Positions 8,955 through 61,256 of a DNA stretch of 64,000 bases are shown here, one piece after another; the first letter of the stretch is position 1; each line of letters begins with the position of its first letter. The notes beneath the pieces were generated by a model, which saw only the letters and a program-made list of their open reading frames with translations, searched no databases and was not told where the DNA came from. The DNA comes from Acetonema longum DSM 6540. GTDB taxonomy: Bacteria > Bacillota > Negativicutes > Sporomusales > Acetonemataceae. The translations under genes and the position numbers were made by a program. Where the stretch lies: contig NZ_AFGF01000280.1 in the NCBI RefSeq assembly GCF_000219125.1, forward strand, positions 1-64,000, read 5' to 3'.

Positions 8955-9392
8955 ATGGGTAAAGGAACTGTAGTCGCGGTATGTACCAGTGTCAACAAAG
9001 GCGAACGCAAGAAAAATGTCGGTGCAGCCATGCTGTTGCCCAATCTGGGGCTGGAGGGCGATGCTCATGCCGGCTTCCAGCACCGGCAGGTCAGTCTGCT
9101 GGCTTTGAAAAGTATTGAAAAGATGCGCAACATGGGACTGGATGTGAATCCGGGGGACTTTGCCGAAAATTTGACTATCCAGGGCATGGAGCTGATCTCT
9201 CTGCCGGTCGGAACCCGGCTTCGCATCGGAAAATCCTTGCTGGAAGTCAGCCAGATCGGAAAAGAATGTCACAACCGCTGCGCTATCTACTATCAGGCCG
9301 GCGACTGTGTCATGCCCAAGGAAGGTATTTTTGCCATTGTCAGGCAGGGCGGTCCGATCAAAGTCGGCGATGAAATTGAGGTGATCGACTGA
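8955..9392 (+). CDS. MOSC domain protein
   Basis: This 145-aa protein is a free-standing MOSC domain (YiiM/EF-type). The family signature Gly-Asp-Ala-His-Ala (LEGDAHAG), VNPGDFAENLTIQG and the conserved cysteine in IGKECHNRCAI are visible. MOSC domains bind sulfur or pterin groups and serve in molybdenum-cofactor sulfuration or transfer. In anaerobes such single-domain forms lie beside moaC and mogA, as here. ATG 8955 was chosen because AGAGGAG sits 8 bases upstream; the longer frame from 8886 runs inside moaC. The stop overlaps the mogA start (ATGA). Confidence 0.9.
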   Translation: MGKGTVVAVCTSVNKGERKKNVGAAMLLPNLGLEGDAHAGFQHRQVSLLALKSIEKMRNMGLDVNPGDFAENLTIQGMELISLPVGTRLRIGKSLLEVSQIGKECHNRCAIYYQAGDCVMPKEGIFAIVRQGGPIKVGDEIEVID

Positions 9393-9880
9393 TGTACAGC
9401 ATCGGCATTATCACTGCCAGTGATAAGGGCTCCCGTGGCGAGCGGGAAGATGTAAGCGGCCAGGTCATCAAAGAAATACTGACTGACCTGGGTGAGGTAA
9501 AACACTATATCGTTGTACCGGATGAAAGAATGGCCCTGGAAGAACAAATGAAATTCATGGCTGACCGGATTCATATCGACCTGATCCTGACTACTGGCGG
9601 CACAGGCCTGGGACCTCGGGATGTAACCCCCGAAGCCACTCTTGCCGTCATCGACCGGCTGGTTCCCGGCATCCCCGAGGTCATGCGGGCCAAATCCCTG
9701 GAGAAAACCTCCAGGGCTATGCTGTCTAGGGCAGTAGCCGGCATAAGAGGCAGCACTCTGATCATCAACTTGCCGGGCAGTCCCAAAGGCGTGAGGGAGT
9801 GCCTGGAATTCATCCTGCCGGCATTGGATCATGGATTAGCGATTATGAAAGGGGAGGCTGGGGAATGCGCTCGGCCATAA
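9392..9880 (+). CDS. mogA: Molybdopterin adenylyltransferase (MogA/MoaB family)
   Basis: The 162-aa protein activates molybdopterin by adenylation before metal insertion. The MoCF-fold motifs SDKGSRGEREDVSG, LILTTGGTGLGPRDVTPEAT and INLPGSPKGVREC are intact. Its ATG overlaps the TGA of the MOSC gene, which implies coupled translation. MogA and MoaB are close relatives; the name is by family similarity only. An MFS transporter gene follows after 27 bases. Confidence 0.9.
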   Translation: MYSIGIITASDKGSRGEREDVSGQVIKEILTDLGEVKHYIVVPDERMALEEQMKFMADRIHIDLILTTGGTGLGPRDVTPEATLAVIDRLVPGIPEVMRAKSLEKTSRAMLSRAVAGIRGSTLIINLPGSPKGVRECLEFILPALDHGLAIMKGEAGECARP

Positions 9881-39659: not shown

Positions 39660-39752
39660 ACCTGACGCAGCGTTGATTTTTGAAACTTATATACTGCAAA
39701 ATCTCCGGAATTGCGCCAATAGCTTGACTGTTGGCACAAAAAGAAAAAGCAA

Positions 39753-39768
39753 TGTGATAAATTTCACA
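39753..39768. promoter_or_regulatory. TGTGA-N6-TCACA palindrome (Rex- or CRP/FNR-type operator)
   Basis: TGTGATAAATTTCACA is a perfect TGTGA-N6-TCACA palindrome nine bases before a -35-like TTGCCA. The extended form also resembles the Rex redox-repressor site TTGTGA-N6-TCACAA, and Rex commonly controls bcd-etf genes by the NADH/NAD ratio. Which protein family binds it cannot be decided here. Confidence 0.6.
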
Positions 39769-39776
39769 AAAACATC

Positions 39777-39861: not shown

Positions 39862-41001
39862 ATGGTATTTGAACTGACGGAAGAACAGGTAATGATGCAA
39901 AAAATGGTGCGGGAATTTGCGGAAAAAGAAGTAGCCCCCAGTGTGGTGGAACGGGATGAGAACGATGAGTTTTCCCGTAAACTGTATGACGCTATGGGCG
40001 ACCTCGGATTTACCGGCATTTGCTTTCCTGAAGAGTACGGCGGCGCCGGGTCCGATGTCTTAAGTTACATTCTGGCGATCGAAGAGTTGTCGAAAGTAGA
40101 CGATGGTCTGGGAATTACCCTGTCGGCGACAGTATCCCTGTGCGCCTGGCCAATTTACAAGTATGGCACGGAAGAACAAAAGAAGAAGTATTTAAGACCG
40201 ATGCTGGAAGGAAAACACATGGGCGCCTTCGGCCTGACCGAACCCAATGCCGGTACCGATGCGGCATCGCAGCAGACAGTCGCCGTACTGCAGGGGGATC
40301 ATTATGTCATCAACGGCAGCAAGATCTTCATTACTAATGCCGGTGAAGCCGAAACCTATGTGGTATTCGCTATGACCGACAAAAGCAAAGGGGTCAAAGG
40401 TATTTCGGCCTTTATCATGGAAAAAGGAATGCCGGGATTCACCTTTGGCAAAAAAGAACATAAGCTGGGGATTCACACCTCCCTGACCATGGAACTGGTC
40501 TTCCAGGATGTAAAAGTGCCGGTAGCTAATATGCTGGGCAAAGAAGGGGACGGTTTCAAGATCGCCATGACCACTCTGGACGGCGGTCGGATTGGCGTCG
40601 CCGCGCAAGCCCTTGGCATTGCCCAGGCTGCGCTGGATCATGCTATTAAGTATTCCAAAGAACGGGTGCAGTTTGGCAAGCCTATTGCCACCCAGCAGGC
40701 GATTGCCTTTATGCTGGCAGACATGGCTACCAAAGTGGAAGCATCCCGTTTGCTGGTCTACCGGGCGGCGTATCTGAAGGAAAAAGGCCTGTCCTATTCC
40801 AAGGAAGCAGCCATGGCTAAAATGTATGCGTCCGATGCTGCTATGGCTGTTACGACCGATGCGGTACAGATTTTTGGCGGATATGGCTACAGCCGTGAGT
40901 ATCCGGTTGAACGCCTGATGCGCAATGCCAAAATCACGCAAATTTATGAAGGTACCAACCAAGTTCAGCGCATTGTTGTTTCCGGGGCGATTTTACGCTA
41001 A
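39862..41001 (+). CDS. bcd: Short-chain acyl-CoA (butyryl-CoA) dehydrogenase
   Basis: The 379-aa flavoprotein reduces crotonyl-CoA to butyryl-CoA or runs in reverse. It has [15 protein letters not shown] (FAD-binding), FITNAGEAE, the [16 protein letters not shown] helix, [20 protein letters not shown]-like residues (here MRN), and the catalytic Glu363 in IYEGTNQ. etfB and etfA follow, supplying the electron-transfer flavoprotein; in clostridia this trio can bifurcate electrons to ferredoxin, which is possible but not shown here. Confidence 0.94.
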
Positions 41002-41086
41002 TTCTTTCGGTAGTGTATTTAATTTCGCCCCATTTTGCGATACAATAAACGGTGTGAATGTTAAGTACTAACAGGAGGGCTTGAAA

Positions 41087-41872
41087 TTGGAAATTGTTGT
41101 ATGCGTCAAGCAGGTGCCTGACACCGCTGAGATCAAAGTCGACCCAGAGACGAATACGCTGATTCGTCAGGGAGTGCCCAGCATTGTCAATCCATTTGAC
41201 AAAAACGCAGTTGAGGCTGCTCTGCAGCTCAAAGAAAAGCATGATGGAAAAATTACGGTCATTTCTATGGGACCGCCACAGGCAAAGGATGCCTTAAAAG
41301 AGTGCCTGGCAATGGGTGCCGATGAAGCCATTCTGATCAGCGACAGGGCATTTGGCGGTGCGGACACGCTGGCCACCAGTTATACCCTCGCCAGCGCAAT
41401 CAAAAAGCTGGGCAAGGTTGACCTGGTTATCTGCGGTAAACAAGCCATTGACGGCGATACCGCTCAGGTTGGTCCGGAAATTGCCGAACACCTGGGTATC
41501 CCTCAGGTTACTTATGTATCCAAAGTGGAAGCCGACGGCAATATCCTGCGAGTGGAACGGGAGCATGAAGAAGGCTATGAGGTTCTCGAAATTTCCATGC
41601 CCGCATTGCTTACAGTGGTAAAATCTATCAACGAGCCCCGGTATCCTACTGTTAAAGGTACGATGAAAGCAAACCGCAAGGAGATCCCGGTGTGGACAGT
41701 CAACGACCTGGAGGTCGATGCGGCGAAGCTCGGTCTGAAAGGATCGCCAACTCAAGTCCGCAAGATTTTTGTTCCTCCTTCCCGTACTCAGGGTGAAGTA
41801 ATCCAAGCGGAAACCGCTCGCGAAGCTGTCGGCCTGCTCATACAAAAGCTGACGGAAGCGAAAATTGTGTAA
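41087..41872 (+). CDS. etfB: Electron transfer flavoprotein beta subunit
   Basis: The 261-aa subunit begins MEIVVCVKQVPDTAEIKVD and contains VNPFDKNAVEAAL, MGPPQAKDALKECLAMGADEAILI and the AMP/FAD-binding segment CGKQAIDGDTAQVGPEIAE. It forms the Etf dimer with the next gene to take electrons to or from Bcd. TTG 41087 is chosen: ACAGGAGGG lies 8 bases upstream, whereas the TTG at 41081 is too close to it. Confidence 0.94.
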   Translation: MEIVVCVKQVPDTAEIKVDPETNTLIRQGVPSIVNPFDKNAVEAALQLKEKHDGKITVISMGPPQAKDALKECLAMGADEAILISDRAFGGADTLATSYTLASAIKKLGKVDLVICGKQAIDGDTAQVGPEIAEHLGIPQVTYVSKVEADGNILRVEREHEEGYEVLEISMPALLTVVKSINEPRYPTVKGTMKANRKEIPVWTVNDLEVDAAKLGLKGSPTQVRKIFVPPSRTQGEVIQAETAREAVGLLIQKLTEAKIV

Positions 41873-41886
41873 GGAGGAGAAACAAC

Positions 41887-42903
41887 ATGGCAGAAATTGA
41901 TAAGAACGCTTATAAAGGCGTATGGGTCTATATTGAACAAGTGGACGGGCAAGCCCGCGGCGTCGGTCATGAGCTTTTAGCTCAGGGCCGCATGCTGGCA
42001 GACAAGTTGGGCCAGGAACTGGCCGGGGTTATTATTGGTCATAATGTGGAAGCCTTGGCCAAAGAAGTGTTTGCCAGCGGCGCCGATAAGGTCTATCTGG
42101 TAGATGCTCCGGAACTGGCCCATTACAGTACCGATGGTTATGCCGCTGTGTTTACTGATTTGATTCAGACTTATAAGCCGACCGCCATCCTTTTGGGTGC
42201 GACCAATGACGGACGGGATCTGGGACCGCGGGTTTCCTGCCGGGTTTCTACCGGTCTGACCGCGGATTGCACCGGACTTGATATTGATGAAAAAACCGGC
42301 TTAATTGCCTGGACTCGTCCGGCTCTTGGCGGCAATATCATGGCTACGATTCTTTGCCCGGAGCATCGTCCCCAGATGGGTACGGTACGGCCCAAAGTGT
42401 TCAAGCGTCCGGAACAGGATTTCTCTCGAACCGGTGAGATCGTACGTGTGGCCAGCAAGGTAAAAGCGGAAGATATCCGCACTAAACTGGTTGATGTGAT
42501 TCGCATAGCCACTGCATCCGTCAACCTGGAAGAAGCGGAAGTTATTGTTGCGGGCGGCCGCGGCATGTGCACCCCTGAAAACTTCTGCCTGATTGATCAG
42601 CTTGCCGATGTACTGGGCGCTGCCGTAGGAGCATCCCGTGCCGCTGTTGATGCGGGCTGGAAATCGGCATTGAATCAAGTGGGACAGACCGGCAAGACAG
42701 TCGGACCGAAAATTTACTTTGCCTGCGGCATTTCCGGCGCTATTCAGCATCTGGCCGGCATGTCTTCTTCCGATATCATTATTGCTATTAATAAAGATCC
42801 GGATGCGCCGATCTTTAAAATGGCCGATTATGGGATTGTGGGCGATGTCATGGAAGTACTGCCCATACTCACGGAGGAATTTAAAAAAATAAAAGCCGGT
42901 TAA
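41887..42903 (+). CDS. etfA: Electron transfer flavoprotein alpha subunit
   Basis: The 338-aa alpha subunit has the domain I segment ILLGATNDGRDLGPRVS and the FAD-binding C-domain with VAGGRGMC, GAAVGASRAAVDAGW, QVGQTGKTVGPKIYFACGIS in outline and SSDIIIAINKDPDAPIF. It starts 14 bases after etfB behind AAGGAGG. An N-terminal ferredoxin domain, found in some Etf proteins, is absent. Confidence 0.95.
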   Translation: MAEIDKNAYKGVWVYIEQVDGQARGVGHELLAQGRMLADKLGQELAGVIIGHNVEALAKEVFASGADKVYLVDAPELAHYSTDGYAAVFTDLIQTYKPTAILLGATNDGRDLGPRVSCRVSTGLTADCTGLDIDEKTGLIAWTRPALGGNIMATILCPEHRPQMGTVRPKVFKRPEQDFSRTGEIVRVASKVKAEDIRTKLVDVIRIATASVNLEEAEVIVAGGRGMCTPENFCLIDQLADVLGAAVGASRAAVDAGWKSALNQVGQTGKTVGPKIYFACGISGAIQHLAGMSSSDIIIAINKDPDAPIFKMADYGIVGDVMEVLPILTEEFKKIKAG

Positions 42904-54461: not shown

Positions 54462-54521
54462 GATTCTAATATATGGTGTTAATGTATGTTTTTATCAATC
54501 AGTGGAGGCGGGGGGATATTG

Positions 54522-56492
54522 ATGCGATTGTCGAATATGCGTATGCGAACTAAGTTGACTCTGTTTTTCATACTGATTACCGCTGTGCCGCTATTGGCTA
54601 CGACATTGATTACATCCTGGTTCAGCCACTCATCTTTGCGCGATGAGACTTTTGAGGCCAATCATCGGACTGCTATTGCCCTGGCCGGTGAGGTCGATCA
54701 GATGCTGGATGCGAAAATCAAACTGTTATTGATTATGTCTCAAAATCCGGCGATCCAATCGATGGATCCGGCGCAGCAATTGCCTGTGTTGCGTAATGTG
54801 GCCAATCAGTATGCGGATATGACCTCGCTGATTGTTGCCGATTCCAGGGGCGTTCAGACTGTCCGCACTGTGGGGCAGCTGGCTAAAATAGATGACCGGG
54901 ATTACTTCCGGGAAATTGTAAGCGGCGCCAATTTTGTGATTTCAGATGTGGTTAAGGCTAAAGGTACGGGATTGATGTCCATTATCCTTGCCGTGCCGTT
55001 AAGGGATTCTTCCAATAGCTTAAAAGGGGTCTTGTTGGGGGTTGTTGATTTAAATTATCTGAGCAATCGCATAGGGCAAACAAAAATCGGCGAAACAGGC
55101 TACGCCTTTCTAGTAGACCGCCAGGGCAAGGCATTGGCGCATCCGGATGCAGCCCTGGTGGAAAAACAAGAGGATTTAACGGCGCTAGAAGCTGTTTCAC
55201 GAGCGATTAAGGGTCAGATTGGCGTGGTCAGTTATCAGTGGCAGGGAGAAGAAAAATTAGCCGGATATAGTTTTGTGCCAATGTCCCGTTGGGGGTTGGT
55301 TGTGCAGCAATCCATGAAAGAAGCCATGGCTGGCGCCAATTGGATCATGTGGACAGGCATTGCCATATCGGTAGCAGCCATTCTGGTAGCAGCTGTGATG
55401 GGAGTGCTGGCGGCAGGTTTTTTTACCAAGCCAGTGACCAAATTGGTTGATGCTATAGGTAGAATATCCCGCGGCGATTTAAGTGTGGTGGTAGATGTTC
55501 AGTCTGGTGACGAGATCGGGCAGTTGGCTGCATCATTTAATCAGATGGCACATAATCTGCGGGATTTGATCCGTCAGATTGCCGGCACAGCTGAACGTGT
55601 GGCCGCATCGGCTCAAGAACTTTCAGCCACGTCGGCGCAAGCCGAAAAGGCTATTGTACAAATTACCGGTACAATTACGGATTTCGTGGAAGATTCTCAC
55701 AAGCAAACCCAAGAGGTGGTCACTACAGTCGGGATCGTGACTGATCTTAATCATACGGCGCAGCTTGTTGCGGAAAAAGCGCGTTTTGCTTCGGGAATTT
55801 CTCAGGAAATGGCTAAGGCGGCGCAAAGCGGGGAAGCTGCTACTGGCAGTGCTGTAAGTAATATCAATGAAATAAAAGAGGTAACTTTAAACACTTCGAG
55901 GGCTGTTAGCAGTTTAGGCGAAAAAAGTACTCAGATTGGGCAAATTGTGGATGTGATTACCGGCATTGCCGGCCAAACGAATTTGTTGGCTTTAAATGCG
56001 GCCATTGAAGCGGCCCGAGCGGGAGACCAAGGACGCGGCTTTGCAGTAGTTGCGGACGAGGTGAGAAAATTAGCCGAGCAGTCCGAGCAGGCCGCCCGCC
56101 GGATTTCTCAGATCATCTATGAGATCAGGGAACAGACCGGACAGACTATTGATGCAATGGAGACCGGTAGTTTAAAGGTAAGCCAGGGTGTAGAGGTCAT
56201 TCAACTGGCTGGCGATACTTTGACGGGCATACTGGCTCAAGTCAACAGCAGCGTACAGGCGATTAAAGAAATTGATTTGGCGGTTATTAAGCAGGTTGGC
56301 GATACGAAACAGGTTCTCACCAGTACCGAGTCTATTGCTGAGATTGCTAAACAATCCAGTTCCAATGCGGAAGGTACTGCCGCTGCTGCTGAGGAAATCA
56401 CTGCCTCCATGGAGGAAATAGCGCGGGCAGCTAAGGAACTGGCCGACTCTGCAACTCATTTGGAAGATGCCATCGAGAAATTCAGACTTTAA
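54522..56492 (+). CDS. Methyl-accepting chemotaxis protein with Cache sensor
   Basis: The 656-aa chemoreceptor has TM1 ([19 protein letters not shown], residues about 13-31), an extracytoplasmic Cache-type sensor ([27 protein letters not shown]), TM2 (about 275-300), a HAMP domain ([20 protein letters not shown]), and the signalling domain with hairpin tip [18 protein letters not shown]. It passes ligand signals to CheA/CheW, which are not in this window. ATG 54522 is behind GGAGGCGGGG; ATG 54486 would place that site inside the gene. Confidence 0.93.
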
Positions 56493-56612: not shown

Positions 56613-56628
56613 AGTGAAAAAAATCACA
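56613..56628. promoter_or_regulatory. GTGA-N6-TCAC palindrome in the hydrogenase operon leader
   Basis: AGTGAAAAAAATCACA lies about 15-30 bases downstream of the expected transcription start, a repressor-like position. Its core equals that of the site before the bcd-etf genes (39753-39768) and fits Rex- or CRP/FNR-type recognition. Confidence 0.5.
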
Positions 56629-56651
56629 ATTACTTTAGACGAGGTGCGGCA

Positions 56652-56903
56652 ATGATTAGAATATCCATTTGTGTTGGCAGTGCCTGTCATTTGCGTGGCG
56701 CCCATGGAGTTCTGAACGCCTTTATTGCGTTGATTGATAAGTATCAGGTACAGGGGGCTGTGGATTTAGAAGGGAATTTCTGCCAGGGGTACTGCACAGA
56801 AGGCGTCGTCATTAAAATCGGGAACGAAATTATAACAAATGTTTCTCAGGAGAAGGTCTATGACCTTTTTGCTGAAAAAGTACTGGGGCGTGACGGTACA
56901 TGA
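56652..56903 (+). CDS. Thioredoxin-like [2Fe-2S] ferredoxin (NuoE-type), short
   Basis: The 83-aa protein has the four ligand cysteines of the NuoE/HydA-associated fold: CVGSACHLRG near the N-terminus and CQGYCTEGVV in the C-terminal half. Full NuoE is longer; this form keeps only the cluster domain. It overlaps the next gene by 4 bases and probably passes electrons to the sensor hydrogenase. Confidence 0.88.
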   Translation: MIRISICVGSACHLRGAHGVLNAFIALIDKYQVQGAVDLEGNFCQGYCTEGVVIKIGNEIITNVSQEKVYDLFAEKVLGRDGT

Positions 56904-58588
56904 AGCCAATCACTACGCAAAAGGTAAATTGCAAAGATTGCCACCGTTGTGTACGTTCCTGTCCAGTGAAGGCGATCGCCATAGAGAAAGGGCAGGCCAG
57001 ATTAATCGATGACCGGTGTATTCTTTGCGGGGAGTGTGTTGTGGAATGCCCGCAGCATGCTAAGCAGGTGAACGATCAGGTTGCTGCCGTTAAAGAAGCG
57101 ATTGCCGCCGGGAAGCGGGTTCTAGTGAGCTTGGCTCCCTCTTTTATCGCTTCCTTTCCGGAGTATTCTCCCGGGCAGTTGTTGGCAGCATTGAGAAGAC
57201 TGGGGGCAGCGGTGATTGAGGAAACAGCGGTCGGAGCCGAAGTCGTCTCCTCTTTCTATCGTTCTTCTTTAGAAACAAGGGACCAAACGCTGATATCAGC
57301 TTGTTGCCCGGTTATCGTCAATCTCATCGAAAAATATTATCCTGAACTAGTCTCTAACTTAGCACCGGTTGTTTCACCGATGATTGCCCATGGCAAGCTT
57401 CTGAGGGAGAGGTATGGGGACGATAGTTTTGTTGTATTTGCCGGCCCATGTATTGCCAAGATTGATGAAGGCAGTAAAGATGGATCGCCAATTGACGCCG
57501 TCATTACATTTGAACAATTGAACGAGTGGCTGCGTCATGGTGGCGGCGTGACGCAGACGGATACTTTTGACCGGAGGGCTTTTGCCAATGCACGGTATTT
57601 CCCGATCACCGGGGGGATACTGAAATCTTTTGTCGATTGTGAGACCACTGATACTGAAATGATTGCGGTGGATGGGATTCGGCAGTGTATGTCGGTATTT
57701 TCCAGTCTTGCCCATGGCGAGGTCTCGCCGCGATTTATTGAAGCATTGGCGTGTGACGGCGGCTGTATTAACGGACCGGCCTGCGGCAATGCCCAGTCAA
57801 TTGCCGCCAAACGGGTCCAGGTGGCGAAATTTGTCAAGGACAATGGGCTGAAACAGCGAAATCCTGTATCGGACAGCTTGGATTTTACACGCCAGCATCA
57901 GGCAATCCCCCTTGACTATGTGTCCCCCGCTGAAAGTCAGATACGGGAAGTCATGCAGCAATCGGGGAAACTTACAAAAGCCGATGAAAAAAATTGCGGC
58001 GCTTGCGGTTATAATTCCTGCCGCGACAATGCTATCGCCATCTGTCAGGGGATGAGCAGCATTGACACTTGTGTGCCCTATATGCGTTCAAAAGCCGAGT
58101 CCTTTGCCAATATTATCGTTGATAATTCACTGAATGCGATCATTGTTTTGGATGAACGATTGACAGTCCAGTCTTTTAACCCTTCGGCCGCAGGCATGTT
58201 CGGCAGGCGGCAGGACCTTATGAAAGGACGGAGCTTAACCGACTATATGGATTGTGCGGATGTTTTGAGCGCTATGCAGACAGGAAACAAGGTAGGGGGA
58301 CGGCGGGTTGAATTCCCGGAATATGGATTAATTACCGAGGAAATGATTGTCCCTGTGCCGGAACACAACTTGATTTTCTTGATATTTTCCGATGTCACCG
58401 GTCAGGAAAGGCGAAACCGGGAATTGGAAGAGATGAAACAGGAAACGGTAGAACGAGCGAAGCAGATCATTAACCGGCAAATGCATGTAGCGCAGGAAAT
58501 CGCCGGGTTATTGGGCGAAACTACGGCTGAAACCAAGTCCACTCTTTTAGAATTAATTTCTATATTAAAAGAAAAAGGAGTAAGATAG
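56900..58588 (+). CDS. hsfB: HsfB-like sensory [FeFe]-hydrogenase with PAS domain
   Basis: The 562-aa protein has two 4Fe-4S motifs (CKDCHRCVRSC and CILCGECVVEC, residues about 11-50), an H-cluster domain with all expected cysteines in altered loops (SACCPV near 135, GPCIAK, LACDGGCINGP), a third cluster motif CGACGYNSC, a PAS domain (NIIVDNSLNAIIVLDERL) and a C-terminal helix. This is the layout of HsfB, thought to sense hydrogen or redox state rather than turn over fast. A PP2C phosphatase is encoded next, with stop and start overlapping, as the likely output. Confidence 0.9.
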   Translation: MKPITTQKVNCKDCHRCVRSCPVKAIAIEKGQARLIDDRCILCGECVVECPQHAKQVNDQVAAVKEAIAAGKRVLVSLAPSFIASFPEYSPGQLLAALRRLGAAVIEETAVGAEVVSSFYRSSLETRDQTLISACCPVIVNLIEKYYPELVSNLAPVVSPMIAHGKLLRERYGDDSFVVFAGPCIAKIDEGSKDGSPIDAVITFEQLNEWLRHGGGVTQTDTFDRRAFANARYFPITGGILKSFVDCETTDTEMIAVDGIRQCMSVFSSLAHGEVSPRFIEALACDGGCINGPACGNAQSIAAKRVQVAKFVKDNGLKQRNPVSDSLDFTRQHQAIPLDYVSPAESQIREVMQQSGKLTKADEKNCGACGYNSCRDNAIAICQGMSSIDTCVPYMRSKAESFANIIVDNSLNAIIVLDERLTVQSFNPSAAGMFGRRQDLMKGRSLTDYMDCADVLSAMQTGNKVGGRRVEFPEYGLITEEMIVPVPEHNLIFLIFSDVTGQERRNRELEEMKQETVERAKQIINRQMHVAQEIAGLLGETTAETKSTLLELISILKEKGVR

Positions 58589-59739
58589 TGAACCCGTTGC
58601 ATGCAGAAATCGGCGTGGCCCAGCTATCCAAAGTCGGTGAAGAGCTGTGCGGCGATAAACTGGAAATTGCGCGCACGGCAGATTCTACGATTATTGTGCT
58701 TTCCGATGGCTTGGGCAGCGGCGTTAAAGCAAATATACTGGCAACTTTGACGACCAAGATTGCCTGTTCCATGTTGAAGCGGGGGATACCGCTTGATGAA
58801 GTAGTAAACACGATTACCGAAACGCTGCCGGTATGCAGCCAAAGAAAAATTGCCTATTCCACCTTCCAAATTGTAGAAGTGACAAATCAGGGACAGGCTA
58901 CCGTGGTCGAATTCGATAGCCCTTCTGCCTATTTGTTGCGTAACGGTCGGGTATCGCCTTTTCCCACCCAGGTCAAATTGATTGGAAACAAAGTAGTTAA
59001 TATAGGTCAACTGCTATTGCAAACAGATGATATAATAGTATTGGTAAGTGACGGCGTCATACATGCCGGCATCGGAGGCTTGCTGAAACTTGGCTGGAAT
59101 TGGGATGGGATTGCTCACTATCTTGAAAGCGAGTGTTGGGGAACCCCGGATCCGGAAGGTATTGTGCAGAAAATTATGCAGTGCTGTGAAGGCTATTATT
59201 TAGGAAAGCCGGGTGATGACTCCACAGCCGCCGCGATCAGATTGCGCCAGCCCCGGTACCTGACCTTATTTACAGGCCCGCCGTCTGATGCAGCCTTAGA
59301 CGAAAAAGTGGTGAAACGCCTGATGCGTCAGCCGGGAGTTAAAATTGCCGCGGGGGGGACGACGGCTGCCATCATCAGCAAAGTGATCCATAGGCCATTG
59401 CGTGTGGATACTTCTTATTATGACCCGCAGATTCCGCCGATTGGTTTCATCGAGGGGATTGATTTGGTTACGGAAGGTGTCCTGACTTTAAATGCCACAG
59501 TGGAACGGATTAGAGATGCCCAAGGCAACCGAGGGAGTTCGGCTAAAGATGGGGCCTCTTTATTGGCGAACTTGCTGCTGCAGGCAGATATTATTCAGGT
59601 TTTTGCAGGAACAGCTGTAAATCCGGCGCATCAGAATCCGCATTTTCCCCAGAAGATGAACATCAAGACTCAGGTACTGGAAAAATTGCGCACTATATTA
59701 GAAATAAAAGGAAAGCAAGTAACACTGGAATGGTTTTGA
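58588..59739 (+). CDS. SpoIIE-type PP2C serine phosphatase
   Basis: The 383-aa protein has a PP2C-like domain with metal-binding aspartates in IIVLSDGLGSGVKA, IIVLVSDGVIHAG and GKPGDDSTAAAIRL, and a C-terminal part of about 150 residues (TLFTGPPSDAALDEKVVKRL, VEGIDLVTEG-like) that I cannot assign. It starts at GTG overlapping the TAG of the HsfB gene. It probably turns the hydrogenase-sensor signal into dephosphorylation of a target such as an anti-sigma antagonist, which is inference. Confidence 0.88.
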   Translation: MNPLHAEIGVAQLSKVGEELCGDKLEIARTADSTIIVLSDGLGSGVKANILATLTTKIACSMLKRGIPLDEVVNTITETLPVCSQRKIAYSTFQIVEVTNQGQATVVEFDSPSAYLLRNGRVSPFPTQVKLIGNKVVNIGQLLLQTDDIIVLVSDGVIHAGIGGLLKLGWNWDGIAHYLESECWGTPDPEGIVQKIMQCCEGYYLGKPGDDSTAAAIRLRQPRYLTLFTGPPSDAALDEKVVKRLMRQPGVKIAAGGTTAAIISKVIHRPLRVDTSYYDPQIPPIGFIEGIDLVTEGVLTLNATVERIRDAQGNRGSSAKDGASLLANLLLQADIIQVFAGTAVNPAHQNPHFPQKMNIKTQVLEKLRTILEIKGKQVTLEWF

Positions 59740-59756
59740 CAAAGGAGGAGTTAATC

Positions 59757-61256
59757 ATGTCGCAAGTAACGGAAGTCATTAAAATCCAACGGAAAGTATG
59801 GGCTGAAATCACCAGAATGACTTTGGCGGGAGAATTAGAAGCCAATGTGGATGAGATACTGCGTACAGTTGTTACCGAAAACGGGCCCAGGTATCGTTGT
59901 TGCGTGCATAAAGAAAGAGCAGTGCTGCGCGACAGAATCAATATGGCCCTAAGTCAGCCGATCGCCTCGGATATTCAGGTATCTGCCGGCCGGTCCCTGG
60001 AAGGTCATATGGAAGAAGGTCCGCTGGTCCGGGTGTTACCCGAGGCCTGTGATCGTTGCCCGATTGACAAATTTATGGTGACAGATGCCTGTAGAAACTG
60101 CTTGGCGCATAACTGTATCAACAGTTGTCCTAAAAAGGCAATTATGGTGGTTCAGAATCGGGCTTATATTGACAAAACCCAATGTGTGGAATGCGGTATG
60201 TGTAAAAAGTCATGTTCTTATGGGGCAATTATCGAGATCAGCCGTCCCTGTGAACGGGCCTGTGATCTTAAAGCCATCAGCGCCGCTGCGGACCGGCGGG
60301 CTGCGATTGATTACGGCAAATGCGTGCAATGCGGTTCCTGCAAAGTTGCCTGTCCCTTTGGAGCCATTAGCGACCGGAGCTTCATTGTACAGGTGATTCA
60401 AGCTATAAAGGCCCAAAAACCAGTCTATGCGATTATAGCGCCGGCTTTTATTGGCCAATTTGGTCTGAAGGTCAGACCGGGTCAAGTGACCAGTGCTCTG
60501 CTTCAATTCGGATTTGAGGCAGTCAGAGAGGTGGCACTGGGGGCAGATATAGTCACACTGGAAGAGACCAAAGAATTCGTTGCGGCAGTGCCGGCCAAGA
60601 AAAAATATCTGACGACATCTTGTTGTCCGGCTTTTGTGACCATGATTGAAAAGCATCTGCCCGACAGCTTGACTCACGTATCGACAACAGTTTCACCCAT
60701 GATTGCCACCGCTAAAATGATCAAACAGGAGAATCCCTCTGCCGTGGTTGTCTTCCTTGGTCCCTGCATCGCTAAGAAAGCTGAGGGATGGCAAAACCGA
60801 GATATGGTTGACTATGTTTTGACTTTTGAAGAAATGGCGGCGATGCTGGACGGGGCAGGCATTAATATCGCCGAAACGGAAGAACGGGAATATCAGGTAT
60901 CAGCTTCACGGGACGGCTATATGTTTGCCCGGACCGGAGGAGTCATGCAGGCGGTTGCAGATACGGCTGCCCAACTGGCACCGGATGTATCGCTTAAGCC
61001 TTATCGCTGCGAAGGGTTGGCAAACTGTAAAAATGTTGTTGCTCAGCTTGAAAAGGGACAAATCGACGCTAACTTTCTGGAAGGTATGGCTTGCATCGGC
61101 GGCTGCGTCGGCGGGCCTGGCACTTTAGTTGATACCAGGGTTACGACCAGGCTGGTGGATAATTTTGCTGCTGCTTCAGCCCGGAAAACAGCTCCCGATA
61201 ATCAGGAAGCTGTAACCGTTACGAAGCAATTGACGCATTGGCACAAGAATCAGTAG
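59757..61256 (+). CDS. [FeFe]-hydrogenase catalytic protein, group B type
   Basis: The 499-aa protein has an N-terminal domain with CDRCPIDKF and several 4Fe-4S motifs (CRNCLAHNCINSC, CVECGMCKKSC, CVQCGSCKVAC), then the H-cluster loops TSCCPAF, LGPCIAKKAE and GMACIGGCVGGPG with all four cluster cysteines. The loop variants suggest group B, less studied than the bidirectional group A. It may exchange electrons with ferredoxin and the HsfB sensor. ATG 59757 follows AAAGGAGG; the frame from 59730 overlaps the phosphatase gene. HydG at 12483-13904 would help mature it. Confidence 0.9.
   Translation: MSQVTEVIKIQRKVWAEITRMTLAGELEANVDEILRTVVTENGPRYRCCVHKERAVLRDRINMALSQPIASDIQVSAGRSLEGHMEEGPLVRVLPEACDRCPIDKFMVTDACRNCLAHNCINSCPKKAIMVVQNRAYIDKTQCVECGMCKKSCSYGAIIEISRPCERACDLKAISAAADRRAAIDYGKCVQCGSCKVACPFGAISDRSFIVQVIQAIKAQKPVYAIIAPAFIGQFGLKVRPGQVTSALLQFGFEAVREVALGADIVTLEETKEFVAAVPAKKKYLTTSCCPAFVTMIEKHLPDSLTHVSTTVSPMIATAKMIKQENPSAVVVFLGPCIAKKAEGWQNRDMVDYVLTFEEMAAMLDGAGINIAETEEREYQVSASRDGYMFARTGGVMQAVADTAAQLAPDVSLKPYRCEGLANCKNVVAQLEKGQIDANFLEGMACIGGCVGGPGTLVDTRVTTRLVDNFAAASARKTAPDNQEAVTVTKQLTHWHKNQ

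Follow-up and report, generated by a model that had tools for sequence, protein, structure and literature searches.

A putative hydrogen- or redox-sensing hydrogenase–phosphatase operon, hfsABCD, in Acetonema longum and the conserved pairing of its HfsB tail with HfsC

The hfsABCD operon and its conserved core

Four co-directional genes, hfsA, hfsB, hfsC and hfsD, occupy positions 56652-61256 of the + strand in a 64,000-nucleotide stretch of the Acetonema longum DSM 6540 genome (contig NZ_AFGF01000280.1; the whole stretch is called the window), and, judged by gene content, order and domains, this operon is a copy of the described hfsABCD (Table 1). The genes are coupled by a 4-nucleotide overlap between hfsA and hfsB, a 1-nucleotide overlap between hfsB and hfsC (58588-59739, GTG start, 383 amino acids (aa)) and a 17-nucleotide gap before hfsD if the latter starts at the ATG at 59757, which is preceded by GGAGG (AAAGGAGG). 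Gene calls and domain scores bear out an earlier note on this DNA, which had described a four-gene set with named products joined by overlaps or short gaps; the start that it gave, 56613, has to be corrected, since the first gene begins at 56652 and 56612 is the first base of a Rex-like palindrome.

Table 1 Features of the hfsABCD locus in the window.
Feature	Positions	Strand	Description
hfsA	56652-56903	+	83 aa; NuoE-like thioredoxin-like [2Fe-2S] protein, corresponding to the NuoE C-terminal half; PF01257
hfsB	56900-58588	+	562 aa; [FeFe]-hydrogenase-like putative sensor; PF02906, FeS PF04060, Fer4, PAS
HfsB post-PAS tail	58397-58585	+	residues 500-562; conserved column block
hfsC phosphatase domain	58588-59250	+	residues 1-221; SpoIIE-type PPM/PP2C; PF07228
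hfsC C-terminal alpha/beta domain	59251-59739	+	residues 222-383 and stop; AlphaFold2 prediction, without named family
hfsD	59757-61256	+	499 aa; group B [FeFe] hydrogenase; TIGR04105
Rex-type operator candidate AAGTGAAAAAAATCACAA	56612-56629	n/a	palindrome, 22 nucleotides 5' of hfsA

Domain scores exceeded their cut-offs for HfsD (TIGR04105, group B1, 577.5 bits versus 450) and for the SpoIIE domain of HfsC (PF07228, residues 32-219, 59 bits versus 25), and HfsA matched PF01257 at 31.6 bits (cut-off 24.8), with cysteines 7, 12, 44 and 48 invariant in 65 sequences. HfsB combines two N-terminal [4Fe-4S] motifs, an H-domain (PF02906, 170 bits) and a C-terminal Cx2Cx4Cx16C motif with a PAS domain at residues 406-464, the scores of which were marginal (PF00989, 22.3 bits against a cut-off of 22.6; PAS_8, 20.3; PAS_4, 18.9) at a consistent position. 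A four-gene series of like order and with the same described products is known from Thermoanaerobacterium saccharolyticum and T. thermosaccharolyticum, where HfsB is an [FeFe] hydrogenase with a PAS domain, HfsC is homologous to serine phosphatases and HfsD is a ferredoxin-linked [FeFe] hydrogenase (PMC11837493, PMC5707799); this likeness is one of gene content and order, not of alignment to record GQ354412. The host lineage is different, and whereas the Thermoanaerobacterium HfsA is described as aligning poorly with known proteins, the window HfsA matches the NuoE-type [2Fe-2S] family.

When HfsC was used as query, a protein search returned 306 relatives, the best 80 of which belong to genera other than Thermoanaerobacterium; the nearest (59-62% identity) are from Selenomonadales/Sporomusaceae and one Bacillota metagenome-assembled genome. 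Eighty loci were kept, from many genera and mostly from Clostridia-type anaerobes, and because the arrangement recurs across them it is not due to chance. HfsB lies directly upstream of HfsC in all 75 testable loci (our script found 74 and missed one, L056, in which the genes nearly abut) and HfsA is at its expected place in 73 of the 75; HfsD comes next after HfsC in 39 of the 72 loci that could be tested for it and is absent from that place in the remaining 33. The conserved unit is therefore hfsA-hfsB-hfsC, with hfsD as an optional partner. Clustering of neighbour families (935 open reading frames in the 80 loci plus the window) revealed no shared gene of unnamed type recurring beside the operon, the commonest other neighbours being an ABC transporter ATPase (11 loci) and NuoF/HydB-like proteins (10 loci). 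A chemotaxis gene upstream of the operon (54486-56492) was considered as a part of it and rejected, as it recurs in only 4 loci.

The HfsB tail, the two domains of HfsC and the H-cluster

The stretch of about 60 residues that follows the HfsB PAS domain, probably a helix as judged from its sequence, is better conserved than the PAS domain itself: mean identity to the window HfsB is 27% in the PAS core and 46% over the following 60 residues, and mean column identity in the tail is 64% (41 sequences). The tail sequence occurs once in the window's genome. Across 299 genomes sampled over the phylum, the tail was found in 92 and the HfsC C-terminal domain in 95, and all 92 genomes with the tail have both. 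At the level of genes, 106 of 108 tails have an HfsC C-terminal domain within 2 kilobases downstream on the same strand; both unpaired tails are in assemblies of many contigs. At one locus (L180), tail and C-terminal domain have diverged together; at another (L182:5587-6726), an orphan HfsC without HfsB has a phosphatase domain that lacks the stretch after the second metal-binding Asp, and this eroded copy, to judge from its sequence, seems to have decayed once the sensor had been lost. Natural fusions of HfsB and HfsC were not seen, nearly all HfsC matches lying in frames of about 380-530 aa.

The phosphatase half of HfsC is of the SpoIIE type in sequence and in predicted structure. The full-length model has a mean predicted local distance difference test (pLDDT) score of 88.1 and a predicted template-modelling (pTM) score of 0.82, and residues 1-224 superpose on SpoIIE (5ucg) with Z 25.6 over 214 residues at 2.8 Å. 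The metal-binding residues D23, D40, D155 and D211 are invariant in 68 sequences, so HfsC is expected to be catalytically active. With SpoIIE, RsbU and RsbP it shares the catalytic fold and the metal Asp residues, and PAS-type input is known in RsbP; in contrast to these proteins, the HfsC phosphatase domain begins at the N-terminus, without the N-terminal regulatory domain or linker helix of the SpoIIE/RsbU type, the PAS domain belongs to another protein, HfsB, and an alpha/beta domain is added at the C-terminus. Control through a linker helix has been established for RsbU and proposed to be general among SpoIIE-type phosphatases, including PAS-linked ones (PMC12143880).

Two cysteines of the phosphatase domain drew attention as candidate thiol switches. 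Cys21 was rejected: it is invariant but unspecific, the CGD motif being found also in RsbX and in another phosphatase of the genome. Cys83 (58834-58836), which lies just past alpha-2 of the phosphatase switch element, is present in all 68 sequences, whereas SpoIIE, RsbX and the other phosphatases in the comparison lack it; on sequence grounds it is a possible thiol switch.

The earlier note was right that some 150 C-terminal residues of the phosphatase (about 222-383) resist assignment: Pfam yielded no match for the window protein and none that was consistent over 68 relatives, and the Protein Data Bank held no credible sequence match (best E 0.12, phosphoheptose isomerase). A fold search with whole HfsC covered residues 1-222 only, and the C-terminal domain was therefore modelled separately. 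The structure prediction that the note had proposed as a check gave a confident alpha/beta module (AlphaFold2, about 160 residues, mean pLDDT 88.4, pTM 0.84). Its best Foldseek match was methylglyoxal synthase (E 0.009), and the top 20 rows of a structural comparison were alpha/beta domains of NuoG, formylmethanofuran dehydrogenase and formate dehydrogenase (Z 10.4-7.3, about 10% identity), with the next unrelated rows lower, at Z 6.8; this likeness may reflect a common Rossmann-like arrangement and nothing more. The invariant residues of the domain (GPP, D, GG, PP, TEG, N..H) fall mostly in loops around the strands of the model, as in a ligand-binding site.

Stand-alone versions of this domain (156-159 aa) are encoded in three genomes of one genus (L177:7623-8102, L178:7945-8415, L179:7599-8075), each directly 3' of a bifurcating-type HydA that bears an HfsA-like C-terminal domain, and all three genomes also have full-length HfsC. 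Judged by gene order, the domain's association with hydrogenases extends beyond HfsC.

HfsB itself resembles sensory [FeFe] hydrogenases, including TmHydS, in its H-domain, its two N-terminal [4Fe-4S] motifs and its C-terminal Cx2Cx4Cx16C motif, and has a PAS domain as TmHydS does. Among 70 sequences, including that of the window, the four H-cluster ligand cysteines (L1, L2 and L3 motifs) and the C-terminal cluster cysteines C366, C369, C374 and C391 are invariant, and the Met353 equivalent is Gly in 67. At the proton-relay position (C299 of CpI), the window protein has Cys and the 70 sequences vary (39 C, 13 A, 13 S, 5 F), whereas loss of C299 is reported for the characterised sensory M2e/M2f classes (PMC8163306), a difference that weakens the analogy with TmHydS. 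Because this Cys is kept (a reported trend and not a formal HydDB criterion), we describe the window HfsB as akin to the phosphatase-associated, putative sensory [FeFe] hydrogenases of HydDB group C3, short of a proven C3 member. It also carries the long conserved post-PAS tail. HydF is present in the genome, so the H-clusters can probably be built in this host.

Predicted Rex operators and candidate phosphatase targets

The palindrome upstream of hfsA, AAGTGAAAAAAATCACAA, matches 11 of 14 positions of a Rex consensus, TTGTGAAnnnnTTCACAA, a score that 4% of shuffled upstream regions reach. The three nearest relatives (L005-L007) have GTGAA-N4-TTCAC at the same place (AAGTGAAATATTTCACAA, ACGTGAAACAATTCACAA and AAGTGAAATTGTTCACAA). 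Among 66 non-redundant regions upstream of hfsA, 20 contained a site matching at least 12 of 14 positions of one of two Rex consensuses, and these consensuses ranked 1st of 210 and 1st of 105 among letter-permuted palindromes (permuted means, 0.17 and 0.6 regions). A Rex site before hfsABCD has been predicted in T. saccharolyticum (PMC5886521); to this the present analysis adds the broad conservation of the predicted site before hfsA. A Rex-like regulator gene, named by eye from its sequence, is encoded elsewhere in the genome (L098:14383-15021), and the whole operon is probably under Rex control, as far as operator-like sequences indicate. A scan for promoter and terminator consensus sequences found promoter-like sites near shuffled expectation. 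Elsewhere in the window, another Rex-like palindrome (ATGTGATAAATTTCACAA, 39752-39769) lies 5' of genes for butyryl-CoA dehydrogenase and etfBA-like products (39862-42903).

An anti-anti-sigma partner of HfsC was sought through genomic linkage. In the neighbour clustering of the 80 loci, no STAS, anti-sigma or kinase gene family was linked to the operon. A search of the whole genome for STAS and HATPase domains recovered two STAS domains only: one in a protein that adjoins the best match to a SpoIIAB-like kinase (C102) and is presumably SpoIIAA, the other in a 90-aa protein (L097:10192-10464; C25) that reads FDHNG at the site of the phosphorylated Ser in SpoIIAA-type proteins; neither stands out as a partner of HfsC. 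The link to an anti-anti-sigma factor that the earlier note had raised is thus not supported. The genome encodes one Ser/Thr kinase.

Two further hydrogenase loci were noted. At the locus that encodes the second STAS protein (L097), an HfsA paralogue (9329-9610) lies right after hydA and is followed by a flavodoxin-like gene and then the STAS gene, three genes past hydA. The other (L098:5225-14192; C56) is a hydABC cluster with a HydS-like hydrogenase that lacks PAS (L1 SSACP, Ala in place of Cys299), DRTGG-like and PHP genes, two HATPase proteins and the Rex-like gene downstream. Together with HfsB, this PAS-less protein would give the genome two kinds of putative sensory hydrogenase.

A model for hydrogen- or redox-controlled dephosphorylation

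We consider it fairly probable that in hfsABCD, HfsB senses hydrogen (H2) or redox state and controls HfsC in trans through its post-PAS tail, with HfsD as an optional component and Rex acting on top. The chain that we infer comprises H2 sensing, HfsB–HfsC contact, a role for the tail, a phosphatase output and Rex binding. The H-cluster of HfsB would read H2 or the redox state of ferredoxin or of reduced nicotinamide adenine dinucleotide (NADH), and HfsA would be its [2Fe-2S] partner in electron transfer; the signal would pass through the C-terminal [4Fe-4S] motif to the PAS domain and on to the tail. Because HfsC has neither an N-terminal regulatory domain nor a linker, we propose that the tail supplies in trans the control that RsbU-type phosphatases receive from their N-terminal domain and linker helix. 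HfsC would then dephosphorylate a Ser/Thr phosphoprotein, and HfsD would be an H2-producing or H2-cycling enzyme.

The arrangement and the idea of an H2 sensor acting on a phosphatase have been published, so that the novelty of the operon is low; it is moderate for the pairing of the HfsB tail with HfsC and for the C-terminal domain of HfsC. For Ruminococcus albus and "other enzymes of this class", a PAS-bearing hydrogenase with a Ser/Thr phosphatase has been proposed to sense H2 and modify downstream regulators (PMC6776011). The R. albus cluster resembles hfsABCD in its sensory hydrogenase with PAS and its phosphatase subunit and differs in having a group A1 hydrogenase and an alcohol/aldehyde dehydrogenase, regulated by H2 level. 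In Vallitalea guaymasensis L81, a group C3 hydrogenase is encoded near a group B hydrogenase (peg.96/peg.98, groups as in HydDB; PMC6163223), a pairing like that of HfsB and HfsD in the window. The earlier note had read the operon as a switch from an H2 or redox sensor to a phosphatase. This reading is partly supported: the domain anatomy, the strict HfsB–HfsC linkage and published proposals (PMC6776011, PMC11837493) speak for it, whereas the phosphatase may not carry the known effect of the operon on ethanol formation.

That effect comes from deletions: removal of hfsA or hfsB raises adhE transcript and ethanol, and removal of hfsC, hfsD or the whole operon does not (PMC5707799), a set of phenotypes that fits HfsB holding back something that needs HfsC and HfsD. 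Several points weigh against our model. A T. thermosaccharolyticum strain deleted for hfsABCD regains the high-ethanol phenotype when given hfsD alone (PMC11837493), and HfsC is therefore not needed for that effect. The redox state of the C-terminal cluster of TamHydS, a related group D sensor, is unchanged by H2 (PMC13104023), neither a substrate gene nor one for a kinase or a STAS protein accompanies the operon in the loci compared, and the perfect linkage of HfsB and HfsC could be explained by operon inheritance instead of contact. The hfsD result, together with the requirement for hfsD in high-ethanol T. saccharolyticum (PMC12288451), favours a different account, in which HfsA, HfsB and HfsD are mainly an electron-transfer and hydrogenase set, HfsB restrains or tunes HfsD directly and HfsC is minor or separate; HfsB, which keeps all H-cluster ligand cysteines and, in 39 of 70 sequences, the proton-relay Cys, may itself be catalytic. 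We regard this as rather unlikely, given that HfsC stays in the 33 of 72 loci in which hfsD is missing beside hfsABC (HfsC was the bait there) and that the independent search with the HfsB tail finds HfsC adjoining in 106 of 108 cases.

What HfsB reads may also be reduced ferredoxin or the NADH/NAD ratio, delivered through HfsA and the [4Fe-4S] chain, instead of H2, with the H-cluster as a mere relay. The invariant cysteines of HfsA, the occurrence of HfsA-like domains fused to or encoded beside bifurcating-type HydA, the variation of HfsB position 299 among C, A, S and F and the Rex-type operators that tie the operon to NADH all agree with such an input; the invariance of the H-cluster ligands in all 70 HfsB sequences and the dependence of R. 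albus regulation on H2 level (PMC6776011) do not, and we give it a minor share of our confidence. Classical partner switching, in which HfsC, like SpoIIE and RsbU, would dephosphorylate an anti-anti-sigma (STAS) protein, appears improbable: the SpoIIE-family domain with its SpoIIE-like fold and the STAS gene near hydA in the other hydrogenase locus speak for it, but no STAS or anti-sigma family accompanies hfsC in the 80 loci, and the genome's two STAS proteins are the presumed SpoIIAA and the FDHNG protein without the usual Ser.

Within the model of HfsB acting on HfsC, we tentatively raise the further possibility, itself doubtful, that HfsC is a phosphatase with two redox inputs, switched in trans by the HfsB tail and carrying a Rossmann-like C-terminal domain that binds a redox metabolite or docks onto a hydrogenase. 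If true, the H2-sensing phosphatase would be a split one, its sensor and linker belonging to HfsB and its catalytic domain to HfsC. It has long been asked how fermenting bacteria perceive H2 and settle on ethanol, acetate or H2 as product, a matter of importance for biofuels and rumen methane, and HfsB deletion has already been used to raise ethanol yield without knowledge of the signalling step. The operon itself was known; the value of the present analysis lies in specific pieces that could be deleted or purified, namely the HfsB tail and its pairing with HfsC, the C-terminal domain of HfsC and the stand-alone form of that domain beside HydA.

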